Below are positions 1,791-20,464 of a stretch of DNA of 20,464 bases, one piece after another; position 1 is the stretch's first letter, and each line of letters begins with the position of its first letter. Below the pieces are notes generated by a model that worked only from the letters and a program-made list of their open reading frames with translations, was not told where the DNA came from and searched no databases. The position numbers were made by a program, and so were the translations under genes. The stretch is from a virus, in the IMG/VR virus record IMGVR_UViG_3300014325_000055, positions 1 through 20,464 of that record. One strand, given 5' to 3'.

Positions 1791-1827
1791 ACTTCAAACC
1801 TAGTGCCGGGTGGTGAATTTGAGCGCA

Positions 1828-2137: not shown

Positions 2138-2262
2138 TGGAAGGATTGAACAGGTAGGCTTCCAGAGAGATTTACGCCCAGAGAGGTTTGCGTACCGGGG
2201 CCAAGGGCTCTCTGGAATCCCTCGTCCAAGGACAACACCTTTCGGTGCTGGCCCCAGTACTT
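2138..2262 (-). ncRNA. Candidate structured RNA, multi-helix with possible pseudoknot
   Basis: Read on the minus strand, GTACTGGGGCCA (2260-2249) pairs with TGGCCCCGGTAC (2203-2192), a 12-bp helix with one G-U pair. Inside it are three hairpins: CACC-GAAA-GGTG (2247-2236, a GNRA loop), GTC-CTTG-GAC (2233-2224), and AGGG...CCCT (2222-2219 with 2207-2204). The last has an 11-base loop. That loop's TTCCAGAGAG (2217-2208) is perfectly complementary over 10 bases to CTCTCTGGAA at 2169-2160, giving a pseudoknot or an alternative fold. CTCTCTGG recurs at 2185-2178, and TGGAAG (2164-2159) can also pair with CTTCCA (2143-2138). The wobble pair would be an A-C mismatch on the plus strand, which favours a minus-strand RNA. 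I do not recognise a known family. Confidence 0.55.
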
Positions 2263-2280
2263 ACAAATTGAACACGAACG

Positions 2281-2430
2281 CTATCTAACGTCAACGAAAA
2301 TGTGGTGGCCTTCGGCGGATCGAAAGGAGACGACCCGGTACATTCCGTACAGACCACCATGCATGTATTGCTGGCAGGCGGACCCATCCAGGATCTTCGA
2401 GAGCAATCGAATGCCCGCCAGCAATGTCAT
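2281..2430 (-). CDS. Small hypothetical protein of 49 residues
   Basis: The ATG at 2430 overlaps the TGA of the upstream gene (ATGA at 2427-2430) and has GGAGA at a normal distance inside that gene. The frame ends with TAG at 2281-2283. The 49 residues begin with a hydrophobic helix (MTLLAGIRLLSKILDG) and continue with a Gly/Tyr/His-rich segment ending HHIFVDVR. No family is recognised. Start coupling and the ribosome binding site support it. It is the last gene before the structured non-coding gap. Confidence 0.55.
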   Translation of the reverse strand: MTLLAGIRLLSKILDGSACQQYMHGGLYGMYRVVSFRSAEGHHIFVDVR

Positions 2431-3378: not shown

Positions 3379-3545
3379 GCAAGCCGATTAATCCAAGTGC
3401 GATGACGGGATTGAAGATGGCCTTTCAGGCGGGGTTCAAGTCCGGCCTGCGTGGTGGCCATGCACCGCAACCGCACTACAAGTCCGAGATTCTAAACATG
3501 GCTTATGAAAGAGGCTTTCGGAAAGCAAAGGAAGGGAAGAAATGA
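3375..3545 (+). CDS. Small basic phage protein upstream of the annealing protein
   Basis: A 56-residue protein from the ATG at 3375 inside the ATGA overlap with the upstream stop; a longer frame from 3351 exists but ignores that coupling. The sequence is Gly/Lys-rich with two similar units (AFQAGFKSGLRGGH and AYERGFRKAKEGKK) that look like a repeated A-x3-GF-(K/R)-x-(G/A) helix motif. Such short basic proteins next to recombination genes are common in phages, and their roles are usually unknown. It ends in an ATGA overlap with the candidate single-strand annealing protein gene. Confidence 0.6.
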   Translation: MSKPINPSAMTGLKMAFQAGFKSGLRGGHAPQPHYKSEILNMAYERGFRKAKEGKK

Positions 3546-4504
3546 GCAAAGAACTGGCAACGCGTGAATCCGTCGGTGAAGCTGTCGAGCGAGTCATGAT
3601 CGCAGGCGATCTGGCGAAGCTCAGCGCGGAAGAGCGCGTCGGCTATTACAAATCCGTATGTGAGTCGGTTGGACTCAACCCGCTCACTCGTCCGCTGGAA
3701 TACATTACCCTGAATGGCAAGCTGACGCTGTACGCCCGTAAAGACGCTACAGACCAGCTACGCGCTATTAACCAGGTCAGCATCAATATCGTCAGCCGCG
3801 AGGTTGTCGAAGGCTGCTACGTGGTCACCGCACGCGCCACGATGCCGTCAGGGCGATGTGATGAGAGTATTGGAGCCTGTCCCATCGAAGGATTGAAGGG
3901 CGAGGCACGCTCCAATCAAATGATGAAAGTGGAGACGAAGGCGAAGCGTCGGGTGACGCTGAGTATCTGCGGCATGGGCATGCTCGATGAGAGCGAAGTG
4001 GACTCGATTCCCGGCGCAAGGCTTGGCGAGAATGTGCCAGCCGTCACGACAGCGCCAAAGACATTTGGCAAGCCGAAGACGGATGCTCAAGAGTTTCAGA
4101 ACCTACCGGCGCTGGAGGAATTGGTGGAAAAAGCCAAAGCTGCCGCTGCTCCGCTGCCGGAGTCGAAGGATAGCCAATTCGTTCAGCCGTTGGGCGTGTT
4201 TGCGTCTGGCACGTTAGCAAAAGCGGCGGTTCCTGATGCTGATGAACCAAGCACGGTTCCACAGCAGAATAAGTTCGCAGCTGAATATAGGTTGGCACTT
4301 CCAGAAAAATTTCGACCTCATAGCGATCAGCTTCGTCGCGCCGCTCTCGCTGAAGAGGGATACATCGTTGATGGAGTCGGATCATCGAAGGCAATCTTGC
4401 GGAAGGATTTTCAAAGAGTTGCGAACAAACTTATACGTGCTGCAAAAGAAATGACCGATCCGTTTCTTGGCGATGATTCAGACATCCCGGACAACCTGCG
4501 ATGA
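3542..4504 (+). CDS. Candidate single-strand annealing recombinase (RecT/Bet/Rad52-like role)
   Basis: A 320-residue protein. Its conserved-looking core is residues 25-155: YYKSVCESVGLNPLTRPLEY near 35-54, KLTLYARKDATDQLR at 60-74, then ETKAKRRVTLSICGMGMLDE at 131-150. The early part recalls Bet-type proteins (a 'GLNP.TR' element) and the ETKAKRR helix recalls Rad52/Erf-like proteins. After about residue 165 a Pro/Ala-rich linker leads to a basic C-terminal segment of about 80 residues. The next gene encodes a PD-(D/E)XK exonuclease, so the pair most likely does Red-like end resection and strand annealing. The core matches a family I recall from environmental phages, but no Pfam name can be confirmed. 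The start is an ATGA overlap. Confidence 0.65.
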   Translation: MSKELATRESVGEAVERVMIAGDLAKLSAEERVGYYKSVCESVGLNPLTRPLEYITLNGKLTLYARKDATDQLRAINQVSINIVSREVVEGCYVVTARATMPSGRCDESIGACPIEGLKGEARSNQMMKVETKAKRRVTLSICGMGMLDESEVDSIPGARLGENVPAVTTAPKTFGKPKTDAQEFQNLPALEELVEKAKAAAAPLPESKDSQFVQPLGVFASGTLAKAAVPDADEPSTVPQQNKFAAEYRLALPEKFRPHSDQLRRAALAEEGYIVDGVGSSKAILRKDFQRVANKLIRAAKEMTDPFLGDDSDIPDNLR

Positions 4505-6385: not shown

Positions 6386-6781
6386 GTGGATGAGATTATG
6401 AAAGATGTTCGTGATCTTGCGATTGCTCGAACAGACAGATTGCAGCAGATCCATGTCCTTGATATTGAAGCCGCCATCACGGCCCTTGCCGCTGAGAGGG
6501 ATTTGGCGGTGAAGGATAGCCTTGCTTTAAAGCAAGTATTAGAAATAGCGCAGAATGATTTTGATGCGTGCGTGCGAAGGAATTTCGGTCTTGCCCGAGA
6601 GCGCGATGCCCTTCAAGCGCGGGTGGTGGAGCTGGAGAAGGCGGTGCTGGATACGTGGCGGGAATTCGGCGACGATTGGCACGGGTGTCATCATTGCAAT
6701 GGCAAGCATGCCGACCTGATGGTTAATTTCCAGCACACGCCCGACTGCATCGTTCGGACAATCGAGGGGAAGACACCATGA
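6371..6781 (+). CDS. Coiled-coil protein with C-terminal zinc-binding motif
   Basis: A 136-residue protein. Residues about 5-95 are long helices with heptad character (IEAAITALAAERDLAVKDSL, then LARERDALQARVVELEKAVL), probably a coiled coil. Residues about 103-126 carry HGCHHC...H-x3-C, a CCHC-type zinc site. This layout, a coiled coil followed by a C-x2-C...H-x3-C element with a HTPDC-like end, occurs in small phage proteins of unknown role. It shares its first 15 coding bases with the upstream gene. It ends in an ATGA overlap with the PEP-CTERM gene, so that gene is translated as part of the phage operon. Confidence 0.7.
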   Translation: MSDKTVDEIMKDVRDLAIARTDRLQQIHVLDIEAAITALAAERDLAVKDSLALKQVLEIAQNDFDACVRRNFGLARERDALQARVVELEKAVLDTWREFGDDWHGCHHCNGKHADLMVNFQHTPDCIVRTIEGKTP

Positions 6782-7290
6782 AGAAAACGCTGCTGCTGAT
6801 CCTGATGCTGCTACCGACTTCGCTGTTTGCGAATTCGATTCAGTACACGTTCACCACGACGAGCGGCGATTGTTGTCGTTTTTCCGGTAGCTTTCTAGGG
6901 TTGAACATACAGGACTATCAACCGCCATACGATTCGGCCCTAGATCAATTACGGGGCGACTTCTGGATGCTACGCGACAACCTATCCAGCAATGTATTGA
7001 ACGGGAGATCCGTGATAGCACTCTCAATCATTGAAAATATCAGTCCGGATTCATTAAATGGCCCGAGTTTCAGCCCGCCGATACCGGGTCATCTAATGGG
7101 GCCAGACATACAAATGATTGTTCAATTCTCGGATGGCACGTTTGACGGTGTGGGGCTTACGTCGCTGGCGATGGCGCAGCCGATCGCGCTGGCATCGATC
7201 ACAAACGTACCTGAGCCGCCGACATGGGTGACGATGGGGCTGGGCTTGCTGATGCTGGCGATATTCGCAAGAAAGATAAGGAAGATATGA
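6778..7290 (+). CDS. Secreted PEP-CTERM domain protein
   Basis: A 170-residue protein. The N-terminus is a clear Sec signal peptide (MKKT, then a Leu-rich core, likely cut after LFA at 18). The C-terminus has VPEPPTW at 144-150, a hydrophobic helix (MGLGLLMLAIFA) and a basic end (RKIRKI). That is the PEP-CTERM sorting signal recognised by exosortases in exopolysaccharide-making Gram-negative bacteria. The middle is beta-rich with a Cys pair (GDCC near 30-33) and no enzyme motif. It is coupled to both neighbours by ATGA overlaps, so it belongs to the phage operon and is not stray host DNA. It probably ends up at the cell surface or in the matrix. Confidence 0.85.
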   Translation: MKKTLLLILMLLPTSLFANSIQYTFTTTSGDCCRFSGSFLGLNIQDYQPPYDSALDQLRGDFWMLRDNLSSNVLNGRSVIALSIIENISPDSLNGPSFSPPIPGHLMGPDIQMIVQFSDGTFDGVGLTSLAMAQPIALASITNVPEPPTWVTMGLGLLMLAIFARKIRKI

Positions 7291-9782: not shown

Positions 9783-10424
9783 TTACGCTATGCTGGTGAG
9801 AAGTCCATCTGTAAACGACAGGGTTGTATATAAGTTTGGATTAAAAGCCCCGCTAAATGCACCAAACGTATAGTTCAATAGCGACGGCGTCAGCGTTCCG
9901 CAAGTCAGATTTCCAGCCGCGCTATCATCACCATTTCGAACCGATAGCGTGGTTCCTGATCGCCGCAAACTCACTTCACTAGAAGTCGTGCCTCCCATAT
10001 AAATAACGCTGTCGCCCGTTTGGAGCGTTTTGGCATAAAGGCCAGCGAATCCAGAGGCATCGCCCAGCTGCACCAGTAAGGTCGTGCCGGAACGGCGGAA
10101 GCTGATATCGGTTGCGGCATTACCGCCCATATAAATAAGAGCGGATCCGACCGTCAGCGCCTTGGTGATGCCGACACCGCCCGCCGTGATGATGGAACCG
10201 GTACTCGGTGAGGTGGTATCCGTGGTGAGAGTGGAACTGATACCAGCGGCAAAGGGGATACGGGCGGTCGCCGCAGTCTGTCCATCTTTCGTGATGCAGG
10301 TCGAAAGACCTGTCGCAAGATCCGCTGTCAGCGCATTTGCCCACGTAGAGGAAATGACGGTCGCGGTTACAACTGGATTTCCAGTACTTGTGATCTGGAA
10401 CAATCCCGATCCATTAAAACTCAT
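9783..10424 (-). CDS. Tail fibre / receptor-binding protein with 44-residue repeat
   Basis: A 213-residue protein. Residues 1-60 resemble the N-terminal particle-anchor of podovirus-type fibres: MSFNGSGLFQ at the start, then LATGLSTCITKDGQTAATAR, a segment also seen in many fibre proteins. A linker with GGVGITKALTVG leads to two tandem copies of a 44-residue unit, with IYMGG at 97-101 and 141-145 and RRSGTTL at 110-116 and 154-160. The C-terminal 35 residues are unique and may bind the receptor. The protein is short, so it may form a trimeric fibre with few shaft turns. GGAGA before the ATG is the ribosome binding site, directly beside the inverted HNH gene. Confidence 0.75.
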   Translation of the reverse strand: MSFNGSGLFQITSTGNPVVTATVISSTWANALTADLATGLSTCITKDGQTAATARIPFAAGISSTLTTDTTSPSTGSIITAGGVGITKALTVGSALIYMGGNAATDISFRRSGTTLLVQLGDASGFAGLYAKTLQTGDSVIYMGGTTSSEVSLRRSGTTLSVRNGDDSAAGNLTCGTLTPSLLNYTFGAFSGAFNPNLYTTLSFTDGLLTSIA

Positions 10425-10458
10425 TGCAATGTCTCCAGCTTACAGGCATAGTGAACTC

Positions 10459-11085
10459 ATGAAAAAACATGGACTTTGCACGAGAACAGAAAGACATTCG
10501 CTCTATACAAGATGGGTTCAAATGAAACAGCGCTGCTCTAATCCCAATGATCAAGGCTTTCATCTTTATGGAGGCAGAGGAATTTCCGTTTGTGAACGGT
10601 GGATCAATAGTTTCGCTGCATTTTTGGAAGATATGGGAGAGTGTCCGCCCAGTTTTCAACTTGATCGAATCAATACTGACGGCAATTATGAGCCATCGAA
10701 TTGCAAGTGGTCTTCTCCAACTGAAAACTCTAGAAATCGTCGGGATGCGCGAAAAGTTATAGCAGACGGCGTCGAATATAATGTGAACGTACTCGCAGAA
10801 ATGTCTGGATTGAAAACGGATACTATCATGGCAAGAGCTAAGAGCACTCAGGATCTTCAGCAATTGATTGATCCATCTCGTCATTATCATTTGGTGCCGC
10901 CGCGTCGAGAGCGCCGATCCGGAAAGAAAACGCATTGCAAGCACGGACATCCATACGACGAAGCTAATACTTATTGGAATCCAGACGGGAATCGACAATG
11001 CATTGCATGTAGGCAATATCGCTTGCAGAAGCGAGCTCATTTACAGGCACCTCGCGCATCATCGAGCAAGCAACAGAACACGTAA
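10459..11085 (+). CDS. HNH homing-type endonuclease, inserted on the opposite strand
   Basis: About 208 residues from ATG 10459; ATG 10429 would add ten. The core matches a phage HNH endonuclease family: LYTRWVQMKQRCSNP at 15-29, LYGGRGISVCERW at 36-48, LDRINTDGNYEPSNCKW at 68-84. Then follows a DNA-contact segment (VLAEMSGLKTDTIMARAKS) like the NUMOD-type helix-turn-helix and a second Cys/His site (HCKHGH...CIACRQYR near 162-192). These enzymes cut DNA site-specifically and spread their own genes. The gene is opposite in direction to all its neighbours and sits between the fibre gene and the last internal-protein gene, typical of a free-standing homing gene. The exact start is uncertain because no clear ribosome binding site is seen. 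Confidence 0.85.
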   Translation: MKKHGLCTRTERHSLYTRWVQMKQRCSNPNDQGFHLYGGRGISVCERWINSFAAFLEDMGECPPSFQLDRINTDGNYEPSNCKWSSPTENSRNRRDARKVIADGVEYNVNVLAEMSGLKTDTIMARAKSTQDLQQLIDPSRHYHLVPPRRERRSGKKTHCKHGHPYDEANTYWNPDGNRQCIACRQYRLQKRAHLQAPRASSSKQQNT

Positions 11086-17048: not shown

Positions 17049-17603
17049 TTATACCTTCTTCTTGAGCAATGCCTTCATCTCATCGAGTTCCTTGCGCATC
17101 GCCGATACCTCTGCATTGGCTTCTTCCCGAATGCGGGCCACCAGCTCGGCATCCTTACCCGACTCGATAAAACTCTTGGCTTTCGCCCGGAGGTCGTTGA
17201 ATCCCATGATTTTCTGAGCGTAAGAATCCGGCAAATTGGCAAATTGTTCAATGGTAAAGATGCTCAAGGCGCGGAATTCTGCCTTCTGGGTATCGCTGAC
17301 CGCGTGCCACATCTCAATGGGCATCCCGATTACCTTGGTTTCCCGAGTCTTCTGCCAGCGTTCCCACTCCAATGGATACTCTTCGATGTCAGCTTCCGTC
17401 ACCGGGCGGTCAATCCGCAGGTGCTGATCTGCCGGGATCTTGATAATATGCACGATCGGTTCATATACCGGTCGATTCTCTTTCTTGGACCGGAAGTTAT
17501 TCTTCCTTTGTATCTCGTGGAACATAACGGCCAGCTTACCCTGTACGGGCGCAATGCTGTCGCTGGAATTGGACCAACCGGCTTCTTTGAATTCTCTGCT
17601 CAT
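17049..17603 (-). CDS. Conserved-looking phage protein of the structural block
   Basis: A 184-residue protein. It contains a beta-like segment with RPVYEPIVHIIKIPADQH near 44-61 and a VTEADIEEYPLEWERW element near 69-84. A helix-hairpin-helix-like stretch then reads FRALSIFTIEQFANLPDSYA and FNDLRAKAKSFIE, near residues 110-146. The C-terminus is a coiled coil (EVSAMRKELDEMKALLKKK). The HhH-like region with 'TIEQFANL' resembles a common small structural-block protein in podovirus-like phages whose role is unknown. It starts in an ATGA overlap with the MptE-like gene and ends next to the adaptor gene. Confidence 0.65.
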   Translation of the reverse strand: MSREFKEAGWSNSSDSIAPVQGKLAVMFHEIQRKNNFRSKKENRPVYEPIVHIIKIPADQHLRIDRPVTEADIEEYPLEWERWQKTRETKVIGMPIEMWHAVSDTQKAEFRALSIFTIEQFANLPDSYAQKIMGFNDLRAKAKSFIESGKDAELVARIREEANAEVSAMRKELDEMKALLKKKV

Positions 17604-18367
17604 ACTTTCCTCTTTCGTTGAATGCTCGCGGCCACTGTTTGCATCAGGCCGGAGCCATGAAATTCGATATCAATTGGGGTGGTTTCCAAGAACTCTGCCA
17701 TCTCGCGGGCGGCTTGCCATAAGTGCGGTGTCGTCTTGAAGGTCTTTCCGGCAAGTTCGACATGGATGATTGGCTCATTGTTTCCAGGATGAGGGCCAGA
17801 CCAATGCTGATAACCAAATGAGCAGTCCATGCCGAAGACCCGAAACTTGCGATAGCCCAAGGCATTGGCGACGTTGATGGCCCGCTGACCGACGGTGGAT
17901 CCCCCGCCGATCATGGATTTCAGCCCGCGACTGTGGTTCATACGTACCCATTCGACGGTCTCTTCTCCATTGATCATGTGCCAGAGTTCGACGTTCTTGC
18001 CTTTAAGCACTTCCCAGAAACCTTCCGGGCAGACCGATGCCATGAGATAGCGCGTATGGGCGTTGGCCGCTTGCAGCATCTCCAGCTCGTAGGGTCGCGG
18101 GTCCAGATGCACATGAAAGCTGGGGGTCAGTCCGCGCTCCATCAGGAAGTCATGTGCTCCCGAGACAGTCATCATGGGCAGGTAATCGGTGCGGTTGATA
18201 TCCTGCCATGTTTCCAGCAAGGACGGCCCGTAACAGATGATGGAGATTGCGCCCAGATCGGTCGATGGCGGCAGCTTGCGGAGAAATGGAAATCCGGACT
18301 TGCATGCAATGGCCATCTGCGCATGTCTGTCCGCAGTCGGCATGATGGCAGGTATGGCGATGCTCAT
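17600..18367 (-). CDS. MptE/DUF115-like protein (6-hydroxymethylpterin-kinase-like fold)
   Basis: A 255-residue protein. The core has ICYGPSLLETW near 44-54, a GPS-L nucleotide-binding-type loop, then VSGAHDFLMERGLTPSFHVH at 68-87 followed by LDPRP. A later block reads GGGSTVGQRAINVANALGYR and FGMDCSF. This order (GxSL, GAH/N..L...G..PxxxxxxDP, GGG/SV...A...G) is that of the DUF115/MptE-like family (Pfam PF01973). Its members are annotated as pterin pyrophosphokinases or as enzymes of flagellin or surface glycosylation. In phages the role is unclear. It neighbours two glycosyltransferases and a methyltransferase, so surface-sugar or nucleotide-sugar chemistry is the best guess. Confidence 0.8.
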   Translation of the reverse strand: MSIAIPAIMPTADRHAQMAIACKSGFPFLRKLPPSTDLGAISIICYGPSLLETWQDINRTDYLPMMTVSGAHDFLMERGLTPSFHVHLDPRPYELEMLQAANAHTRYLMASVCPEGFWEVLKGKNVELWHMINGEETVEWVRMNHSRGLKSMIGGGSTVGQRAINVANALGYRKFRVFGMDCSFGYQHWSGPHPGNNEPIIHVELAGKTFKTTPHLWQAAREMAEFLETTPIDIEFHGSGLMQTVAASIQRKRKV

Positions 18368-18549
18368 TTCGATTGTCGATCCGTGGCGCAGGGTTCCAAT
18401 TTAACAGCAGCCAGTCGTTCGAGGCGTTCTTCCTCGCTAGGCTTTTCGTTATAAAACAATAGCCATTGATGCCCGCAGGAAGATTCCACCAGAAGAAGCC
18501 AGAGTCCTTGATCGAATCGCAGTTCCCCGACTTCCATTAAGTTTTTCAT
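18364..18549 (-). CDS. Small hypothetical protein of the sugar module
   Basis: A 61-residue protein from ATG 18549; a TTG at 18588 could add 13 residues but would overlap the upstream gene. It has a beta-rich first half (GELRFDQGLWLLLVESSCGH near 8-27, then WLLFYNEKP) and a helical, charged second half (SEEERLERLAAVKLEP). Cys and His in SSCGH and a later Cys may bind metal. The family is unknown. It ends in an ATGA overlap with the MptE-like gene. The ATG lies eight bases after the stop of the Cys-rich gene, with no strong ribosome binding site, so reinitiation is likely. Confidence 0.55.
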   Translation of the reverse strand: MKNLMEVGELRFDQGLWLLLVESSCGHQWLLFYNEKPSEEERLERLAAVKLEPCATDRQSK

Positions 18550-18556
18550 ATTGTGA

Positions 18557-18706
18557 TCATTTATTTGCTTCTTGGCAGCAGAAAGCAACCCCGTCTTTTA
18601 TAGGCTCACATGGATTCCCGCCATAAGGATTGCAGTGGCAATCGCATTCGCACTTACAATTAATGCAATGATTGCACATATAAGCGTCCTGCTGCTCTTT
18701 TGTCAT
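18557..18706 (-). CDS. 49-residue cysteine-rich metallothionein-like protein
   Basis: The ATG at 18706 overlaps the stop of the GT8-like gene (ATGA at 18703-18706). The frame ends with TGA at 18557-18559. Ten of 49 residues are Cys, most in CNHCINCKCECDCHC at 11-25: C-x2-C-x2-C followed by four alternating C-x-C steps. Another Cys is near 33 and a CC pair sits at 43-44. Alternating C-x-C is typical of metallothionein-like metal clusters. There is no signal peptide, so it probably stays in the cytoplasm. I know of no such protein in a phage sugar module. The coupling to the glycosyltransferase supports a real gene. Confidence 0.6.
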   Translation of the reverse strand: MTKEQQDAYMCNHCINCKCECDCHCNPYGGNPCEPIKDGVAFCCQEANK

Positions 18707-19341
18707 TGTGTCACCTTAAGTTTCTCCAGATGCGGGACGTGTACGCTTTGTCCCATGAGTTCATTGAACGATACGGACGAGTTCATGCGCCGATAGGTAT
18801 CGCGCCATTCCTGAGCGAACTCGCAGTTCTTGGTTTCTTCCCAGATGGGAATTCCCATGGTATAATGAACGATTTTGGCGTTAGGGTTGGGTGCGTCATA
18901 GCCGACAAGATGGTTCCATTCCTTTGGTAGCGCATTCATCTCTTCGCACCATGCCCAGTCATACATCCGATTTACCGGATTATCGATATATATTGGAGTC
19001 AAATGCTTGAACATTGAATTATCGAACAGCATGACGGAAGCCCACTCGAACTTGCGTTCTCCCTTGACGATATTGACACCATTAAATTTCGGCATCTCAC
19101 AAACATCGCCGCGCACAAGAATATCGGAATCCAGAAACAGCGAATAGCCTTCATAGTTGGACAGGTACGGCACGAGAAACCGCGAGTAGGTAAATTCTGT
19201 CAAGCCTCGTCGAGTGATTGGAAGAGTGCGAAGGTCCAGCCGCACAATCTCAACAGGCTTCGAAGCATGCTCCCACACCGATTGAGCGCAGACCTGAAAG
19301 GCAATGGGTTGTCGTGGATCATAACCAATGTAACACCTCAC
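18703..19341 (-). CDS. GT8-like glycosyltransferase
   Basis: A 212-residue protein from GTG 19341, which overlaps the TGA of the methyltransferase gene as GTGA. A longer frame exists upstream but reads through the methyltransferase in another frame. The N-terminus (RCYIGYDPRQPIAFQVCAQS at 2-21) and EFTYSRFLVPYL at 49-60 match a phage/bacterial glycosyltransferase group related to family 8. LFLDSDILV at 68-76 carries the metal-binding DxD (Asp71, Asp73). These enzymes move a sugar from a nucleotide sugar to an acceptor in the cytoplasm. The acceptor here is unknown: a virion protein, phage DNA or host surface glycan are all possible. It is coupled to the Cys-rich gene downstream. Confidence 0.8.
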   Translation of the reverse strand: MRCYIGYDPRQPIAFQVCAQSVWEHASKPVEIVRLDLRTLPITRRGLTEFTYSRFLVPYLSNYEGYSLFLDSDILVRGDVCEMPKFNGVNIVKGERKFEWASVMLFDNSMFKHLTPIYIDNPVNRMYDWAWCEEMNALPKEWNHLVGYDAPNPNAKIVHYTMGIPIWEETKNCEFAQEWRDTYRRMNSSVSFNELMGQSVHVPHLEKLKVTQ

Positions 19342-19940
19342 TTGATGCACTCCACGCGCTGATCCCGCATGGGGAAGTGATAGCGCGGCTCCATGAAATG
19401 AATTTCCCGCATGCCGACTTTCTCCAGCAAGACACCCAAAGACTTTTCGAAATATGCCCATTTGTGACACATCGATACATCATGATATTTGGGATCGCCA
19501 TACAGTGCATGCAGCGTCATGAACGCCAGCATCGGCTCATTCATCTTGATCGAATGCGCCATATACCTCATCACCTTATCGAGACATGGCAGTTCTAAAA
19601 TCAACTTGCCACCGGGCTTCAAGATTCGTCGCCATTCTTTTAGGACTGACTCGGCTTCCCACTCGTAGAAATGCTCCAATACATGAATTGCCGCCACGGC
19701 ATCTGCAGAATCGGTGTCTATTGGGAGTTTGCGTAGATCGGATTGGAGGTCGGCTCCGGGTCCGGCATCGACGTTGATCCATCCGGACCAGTGTGCGCGT
19801 CCGCTGCCGAGGTTATAGGCTGTTGGATAGCTTTCCTCCACATTGACGTAACTATTGCTGGCGTGAAGTTTTCCTTCACGTATGTCTGCGCCATCAAAAT
19901 ACGACGAGAAATCTCGAATACCGACTGTTGCTTCAGCCAT
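19338..19940 (-). CDS. Class I SAM-dependent methyltransferase
   Basis: Up to 200 residues. The methyltransferase core begins near residue 42: YNLGSGRAHWSGWINVDAGP holds motif I and the acidic ribose-binding residue. VAAIHVLEHFYEW follows, then LKEWRRILKPGGKLILELPC, both standard Methyltransf_11 elements (COG4627-like). ATG 19940 has GGAAGG at six bases but makes a 223-base overlap with the upstream glycosyltransferase. GTG 19841 would start just before the core without a clear ribosome binding site. Residues 1-40 look unlike a conserved domain. The substrate is probably a sugar or small molecule given the glycosyltransferases on both sides. It ends in a GTGA overlap with the GT8-like gene. 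Confidence 0.85.
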   Translation of the reverse strand: MAEATVGIRDFSSYFDGADIREGKLHASNSYVNVEESYPTAYNLGSGRAHWSGWINVDAGPGADLQSDLRKLPIDTDSADAVAAIHVLEHFYEWEAESVLKEWRRILKPGGKLILELPCLDKVMRYMAHSIKMNEPMLAFMTLHALYGDPKYHDVSMCHKWAYFEKSLGVLLEKVGMREIHFMEPRYHFPMRDQRVECIK

Positions 19941-20464
19941 TCCAGTCCTTCCTTGATGTTGCCAACCCAGATCCCGGGGACATTATTGACGGAAGGATGA
20001 GGTTCCGCAATAACAAAGCAGCCTTGTCGCACCGCTTCCACGGTTCGATTTGCACTTTTGTATTCCGCCGTTGCGGGCATAAGCACCACATCGGCCAATG
20101 CGAACTCTTTGAGCATCGTCGAGTGCGACCACGGAATGGCATGCTCGAAGTTTCCAACGATCCGCAATGGATAGTCTTTGATGTCATCGAGGATTCGATA
20201 AATGCTTTCCTGGTTGACCGCATTTCCAAACCAGAGGCATTGCCAGCCACCGCAATGGGGCTTCTCTTCGGGAAACTCGAACGGATCGGGAATCACAATC
20301 GCGTCCGGGCGTCCATACTTCGGCACATTGGCGATGATCTCCTTCATCGTCTCGGTGGGACACGTCACGATATCGGCCCGCTGTAGGAATTCCTTATAAT
20401 GAAGCCATTTGAAATGGTCATCGCAGAAGTCCACGATGATCTTCTGGCCTCGCGCTTTGGCGCG
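19718..20464 (-). CDS. Glycosyltransferase, group 1-like, 5' end beyond the window
   Basis: The frame is open to the window edge at 20464, so the N-terminus is missing. The visible 248 residues start RAKARGQKIIVDFCDDHF, then have LQRADIVTCPTETMKEII, VIPDPFEFP and GWQCLWFGNAVNQES. ADVVLMPATAEYKSANRTVE and AVRQGCFVIAEPHP follow. This is the C-terminal GT-B domain of group-1-type transferases as found in phages: the E-x7-E region is replaced by an S-x-N-R-x-V-E-A element. The last about 40 residues (QPITSAADAHTGPDG onward) read over the methyltransferase motif I in another frame and look unlike a conserved domain. It probably modifies a phage or host surface glycan; the sugar and acceptor are unknown. 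Confidence 0.8.
   Translation of the reverse strand, partial: RAKARGQKIIVDFCDDHFKWLHYKEFLQRADIVTCPTETMKEIIANVPKYGRPDAIVIPDPFEFPEEKPHCGGWQCLWFGNAVNQESIYRILDDIKDYPLRIVGNFEHAIPWSHSTMLKEFALADVVLMPATAEYKSANRTVEAVRQGCFVIAEPHPSVNNVPGIWVGNIKEGLEWLKQQSVFEISRRILMAQTYVKENFTPAIVTSMWRKAIQQPITSAADAHTGPDGSTSMPDPEPTSNPIYANSQ

Follow-up and report, generated by a model that had tools for sequence, protein, structure and literature searches.

A probable noncoding RNA of about 430 nucleotides with a structure conserved between two phages

The locus and its counterpart in a second phage

The window, which is the whole analysed stretch of 20,464 nucleotides of DNA from an uncultured phage, contains a leftward operon in which a gap of ~490 nt between genes holds the element described here; in a second uncultured phage, L003, the corresponding gap measures ~520 nt. 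An earlier note had placed a structured RNA at 2138-2262, in a long gap of this operon. The element does lie between genes, but the boundaries of the gap had to be corrected to 2280-1791, because an unlisted 49-codon ORF precedes it and is probably the true last gene before the RNA. The segment is indeed structured; its 125 nt were too short, however, and cover only the 5' third of a conserved structure that runs on the minus strand to ~1828, ~430 nt in total. A listed ORF at 1902-2090 shows no sign of coding. The following features frame the element:

2430-2281, minus strand: unlisted 49-codon ORF, starting in an ATGA overlap with the stop of the preceding gene
2267-2294, minus strand: predicted sigma-70-like promoter TTGACG-16-TTCAAT, 9/12 matches, ending 8 nt before the P1 core
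1808-1817, minus strand: invariant UUCACCACCC, shortly upstream of the next gene, whose start codon is at 1790; identical in L003 at 1860-1851

The predicted promoter has a counterpart in L003 (TTGAAT-18-TATAAA, 9/12 matches, 6 nt before P1), and 9/12 sites at that spacing occur by background at ~0.4% of positions in either sequence; the site before P1 is missing from the list of a stricter promoter scan. A further promoter-like sequence, TTGnCA-16-GATAAT, lies inside the element and may reflect nothing more than conservation of the RNA. In the window, a terminator scan of the element and the bases directly following it was negative; in L003 the scan gave one weak site, overlapping a conserved motif. 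Because no terminator was recognised, transcription may continue into the next gene, of which the RNA would then be the leader. This next gene is a 53-aa ORF in one phage, the window, and RNase H in L003; the RNA-adjacent proteins of the two phages gave no sequence match with each other.

The second phage was reached by a search with the RecT-like protein of the window (3542-4504), which led to two IMG/VR contigs, L002 and L003. These are identical over the 10,789 bases compared, that is, the same virus in two samples, and therefore count as one comparator. The window and the L003 contig have no proteins in common apart from the RecT-like protein, a PD-DEXK exonuclease and one of ~90 aa. By blastn, window 1901-2106 matches L003 1948-2156 at 73%; upstream of this block a plain sequence search finds nothing in L003, yet the same RNA architecture is present there, with only ~43% identity over the segment of the earlier note.

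Elsewhere in the window, a phage protein at 6778-7290 (plus strand) appears to carry a signal peptide, together with a PEP-CTERM-like sorting tail (Pfam PF07589, narrowly below the cut-off at E 6e-4); such a tail is unusual for a phage and a possible hint of the host. Relatives of the RecT-like protein occur in two Acidobacteriota and two Bacillota assemblies, which is a host hint only. A long ORF opposite the tail-gene region (10162-11085, plus strand) reads as HNH-type homing endonuclease-like, with no Pfam match, and the late region includes a sugar- or methyl-transfer-like cluster (17600-20434, minus strand; MptE-like, methyltransferase and a weak glycosyltransferase match).

Architecture of the element

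The 5' domain follows a linker-free plan common to both phages, in which P1 closes a four-way junction with P2, P3 and P4, P5 and P6 come next, and a loop-to-tail pairing is added. In L003, too, P2, P3 and P4 follow the first P1 strand without linker; after the second P1 strand come P5, with its 3-nt bulge, and P6.

2259-2250 / 2202-2193, minus strand: P1, 10-bp closing helix of the four-way junction; UGCGGUUGGC/GCCAGCCGCA in L003, 5/10 pairs changed on both sides
2234-2249, minus strand: P2, hairpin with GAAA tetraloop; by structure-guided alignment, the 6-bp stem of L003 differs on both sides of every pair, has a 2-nt bulge and closes a larger loop
2224-2233, minus strand: P3, hairpin GUC-CUUG-GAC; GUC-GAG-GAC in L003, pairs invariant
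2203-2223, minus strand: P4, hairpin whose loop is the 5' strand of the pseudoknot; in L003 2/5 pairs changed on both sides, one G.G mismatch, outer pair absent
2217-2208 / 2169-2160, minus strand: loop-to-tail pseudoknot, 10 bp perfect in the window, 9 bp perfect in L003, two pairs changed on both sides
2175-2193, minus strand: P5, hairpin ACGC...GCGU with a 3-nt [A/U]AA bulge, directly after P1; the same in L003, core pairs invariant
2173-2168 / 2134-2129, minus strand: P6a, outer stem; GGAUUC/GAAUUU in L003, two pairs changed on both sides and two by wobble
2164-2159 / 2143-2138, minus strand: P6b, inner stem, excluding the pseudoknot; invariant in L003 except for a lost outer pair

The helix that the earlier note had drawn over 12 positions (2260-2249 with 2203-2192) is present with one U-G wobble, and so are the three hairpins it was said to enclose, as AGCACC-GAAA-GGUGUU, GUC-CUUG-GAC and GAGGG-loop-CCCUU. 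The P1 strands read ACUGGGGCC/GGCCCCGGU in the window and GCGGUUGGC/GCCAGCCGC in L003. A second CUCUCUGG in the P5 loop of the window was taken as accidental and is absent from its L003 counterpart.

The 10-base complementarity between the third loop and the tail is perfect, as had been claimed, with strands UUCCAGAGAG/CUCUCUGGAA in the window and CUUCCAGUC/GACUGGAAG in L003. By itself, the pseudoknot is not significant under letter shuffling (4295/20,000), because only two of its pairs vary; judged from the two sequences, its support is the persistence of nine perfect pairs at the same place. We also confirmed that UGGAAG at 2164-2159 is able to pair with CUUCCA at 2143-2138. The proposal that these folds compete holds in part: compensation preserves the loop-to-tail helix and the base of P6, but the five inner pairs of P6b, GGAAG/CUUCC, do not vary between the phages and, being invariant, are uninformative either way. 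By simple energies without a pseudoknot loop penalty, the pseudoknot duplex compares with the P6 hairpin as -16.1 with -8.1 kcal/mol in the window and as -13.4 with -13.2 kcal/mol in L003. Because the inner P6b pairs are invariant, a true two-state switch between pseudoknot and P6b is no more than plausible.

The 3' domain comprises P7 to P12:

2096-2107, minus strand: P7, hairpin UCGA-GCAA-UCGA with GNRA loop; CCGA-GUAA-UCGG in L003, outer pair changed on both sides, GNRA kept
2074-2070 / 1891-1887, minus strand: P8, long-range helix; GUCAG/CUGAC in L003, one pair changed on both sides and one on one side
2068-2062 / 1969-1963, minus strand: P9; GUGAAAG/CUUUUGC in L003, 7/7 pairs kept, 4 changed on both sides
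1956-1949 / 1901-1894, minus strand: P10; 3 pairs changed on both sides, one bulged U in L003
1923-1918 / 1913-1908, minus strand: P11, hairpin inside P10; CCUUUU/AAAAGG in the window, CGUUU/AAACG in L003
1872-1860, minus strand: invariant GGCUCCAUACCGG, preceding P12
1828-1853, minus strand: P12, hairpin with a conserved GGGUA in the loop; 3 pairs changed on both sides in L003

P8 encloses P9 and P10 and so forms a three-way junction. P9 surrounds the most conserved core (~2061-1970), and its strands overlap a would-be small ORF.

Covariation, folding and the search for relatives

A covariance model built from the window alone gave its best match on the 14-kb L003 record at L003 2175-2314, with 23.0 bits (E 2.5e-4), while the next match had 5.5 bits. 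When the structure was removed, a model of the same sequence scored only 5.2 bits over part of this interval, and structure thus adds ~18 bits to the L003 score. The match is detected only with the speed filters off, default filters having missed it; with filters off, the best scores elsewhere were 16.0 bits (59 kb of bacterial contigs) and 10.9 bits (65 kb of related phage loci).

The comparison with a related phage contig that the earlier note had advised did reveal covarying pairs. Over 14 helices in a structure-aware alignment, 80/85 pairs are kept, 30 of them by two-sided changes, a single comparison because only one independent homologue was found; no shuffle of the substituted letters (0/20,000) reached 80 kept or 30 two-sided. 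Since the helices of this count had been chosen after inspecting both sequences, with a structure-guided alignment of the upper domain, a blind helix scan was also run. Requiring a minimum of 5 bp and of 3 two-sided changes, it returned 4 helices, compared with a shuffled mean of 0.6 (1/150 shuffles had as many); with the minimum length raised to 7 bp it returned 2, compared with a shuffled mean of 0.05 (shuffle maximum 1).

A fold of 141 nt, calculated without the pseudoknot, reaches -50.2 kcal/mol, where shuffles average -39.5 (z -2.7; 1/200 shuffles as good), and over 386 nt the folding energy gives z -0.9. Single-sequence folding energy is moderate evidence by itself; it is the homologue that settles the reality of the element. 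Computation establishes both the RNA structure and its conservation. The element is real and new, and its function is inferred.

Only L003/L002 carry the element, no third member having been found in Rfam, phage, plasmid and genome searches. A protein-led homologue search with the 80-aa neighbour returned none. Searches with the RecT-like protein, the would-be small ORF and a tail protein, as well as three DNA patterns run over viral contigs and blastn on phages and plasmids, gave no carrier beyond L003/L002. The element was also absent from whole related phage records and 396 Acidobacteriota genomes; the negative from the genomes is weak, as their set included none known to match. Two candidates were rejected: a 24-nt match in L012 falls within a coding repeat and is due to chance, and a structural match in L057 is an iteron array of TTGCGCAT/ATGCGCAA. 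The dense TTGCGCAT/ATGCGCAA repeats (L057:4184-4360) lie by a replication-type gene on an Acidobacteriota contig and resemble an iteron origin. In another contig (L004:6995-9882), three tandem paralogous tail-fibre-like ORFs are each followed by a short ORF of ~80-90 aa, and these short ORFs are mutually similar.

Explanations and known structured RNAs

Taken together, the element is probably a discrete structured noncoding RNA of ~430 nt (~2260-1828, minus strand), which the phage would transcribe from a dedicated sigma-70-type promoter in the leftward operon. The earlier proposal of a minus-strand phage noncoding RNA agrees with the covariation in the second phage and with the lack of a preferred frame among the three of the minus strand. 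The 5' end of such an RNA would be sealed in P1, which would close the linker-free four-way junction P1-P4, with P5 and P6 directly after it; the P4 loop, by pairing with the 5' side of P6, would tie the domain into a compact shape, and the same GGAAG could alternatively close P6b, giving two mutually exclusive states of the domain. The second domain (P8-P11) would then present the nearly invariant core, and P12 would end the conserved part. Because the neighbours are unrelated in the two phages, we infer a role in trans, either as a scaffold or within a ribonucleoprotein, rather than that of a one-gene switch. Against this explanation stand the invariance of P3, P5 and the five inner P6b pairs and the P4 mismatch in L003.

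The unrelated flanking genes favour a stand-alone noncoding RNA over a gene-specific switch, although they are still compatible with a generic leader. A cis-acting leader, a long 5' UTR controlling translation or transcription of the following genes with pseudoknot and P6b as its switch states, is in our view unlikely. The element does end just before a gene in both phages with no terminator between, it has a promoter at its 5' end, and the two exclusive pairings share GGAAG; however, the switch would lie ~340 nt from the start codon with the second conserved domain in between, and selection for the invariant P6b is unproven. The downstream gene also differs (53-aa ORF or RNase H), and no association with a related downstream gene is conserved, so that the riboswitch-like leader suggested earlier was not upheld.

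Very unlikely is a structured leader or mRNA of a conserved small protein, encoded by a would-be 39-codon ORF (window 2068-1949, minus strand; L003 from 2119) with SD-like GAGAG/GAGG upstream. The start codons align (ATG/GTG) with a purine-rich stretch ~8 nt before them, and a 3-nt indel preserves a frame of 59% identity, but amino-acid identity in the three minus-strand frames is 59, 59 and 58%, and differences by codon position are 14/8/14. No minus-strand frame is thus preferred as coding, and the small-ORF reading was dropped after this three-frame test. The start and end of the ORF moreover fall in the covarying helices P9 and P10, and the would-be protein matches no family.

An element acting as DNA (a cruciform, replication origin or resolvase target) is more improbable still. 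The four-way junction is perfect and the operon encodes a VRR-NUC / Holliday-junction-resolvase-like protein; yet all 12 wobble pairs of the element fit the minus strand only, as the earlier note had observed of one, and would be mismatches on the opposite strand, and the pseudoknot, the three-way junctions over 430 nt and the promoter at the start of the helix also argue against it. A chance fold between genes, with recent descent as the only source of the sequence similarity, is scarcely credible: although the folding energy is only moderately unusual, 30 pairs are compensated, no shuffle equals them and structure contributes ~18 bits to the homologue score.

As in the earlier note, the noncoding RNA could be matched to no known family. 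Rfam 15, including ROOL, GOLLD, tmRNA, RNase P, known riboswitches and phi29 pRNA, gave no family at the gathering threshold over the whole window; for the element itself, searched in each of the two phages with cut-offs as loose as E 5 or 10, it gave only sub-threshold chance matches. Segments of L003 that look like RNase P were dropped, having no Rfam match. ARAGORN found no tRNA or tmRNA in the 20-kb window, and no tRNA-like domain was recognised.

The phi29 pRNA, a phage-encoded structured RNA, measures 120-174 nt and has a three-way junction; its loops pair intermolecularly. The RNA of the window likewise uses loop complementarity, but it has a four-way junction, a longer second domain and loop-to-tail pairing, and it lacks an Rfam match to pRNA. 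Some riboswitches, such as the cobalamin riboswitch, have a four-way junction and a hairpin loop that pairs with a downstream hairpin (kissing loop), a similar arrangement; the RNA here has neither an Rfam riboswitch match nor a shared downstream gene. The manA and wcaG motif RNAs are cyanophage-borne structured RNAs and possible regulators of adjacent metabolic genes (PMC2864571), and resemble it as structured RNAs on phages, whereas its neighbours are not conserved and Rfam gives no match.

ROOL and GOLLD, large RNAs of phages and prophages whose function is unknown, assemble into RNA-only cages; ROOL contains pseudoknots, its studied example has 659 nt and the class is often near tRNA islands, where GOLLD, with many members >800 nt, is also found (PMC12286853). 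Like ROOL, the RNA described here is a large, ornate, phage-borne noncoding RNA with a pseudoknot, and with GOLLD it shares being a large phage or prophage noncoding RNA; it has the extensive covarying structure, pseudoknot and noncoding character of these classes, as seen in two sequences. It differs from both in its length of ~430 nt, in having no Rfam match and in the lack of tRNA genes in the 20-kb window, a neighbourhood that is frequent but not absolute in those classes. It is quite unlikely, though conceivable, that the P4 loop and the tail pair between molecules and that copies of the RNA thereby build a ring or cage made of RNA only, with a third kind of fold that has no relation to those of ROOL and GOLLD. 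From its sequence and predicted structure, the RNA would be a new family of the general kind of ROOL and GOLLD and a member of neither. Large intricate phage-encoded RNAs are rare and of unknown function; another that is smaller and unrelated would serve as an independent case for comparison, and an RNA kept by two phages that share little else would help to test the role of such RNAs during infection.
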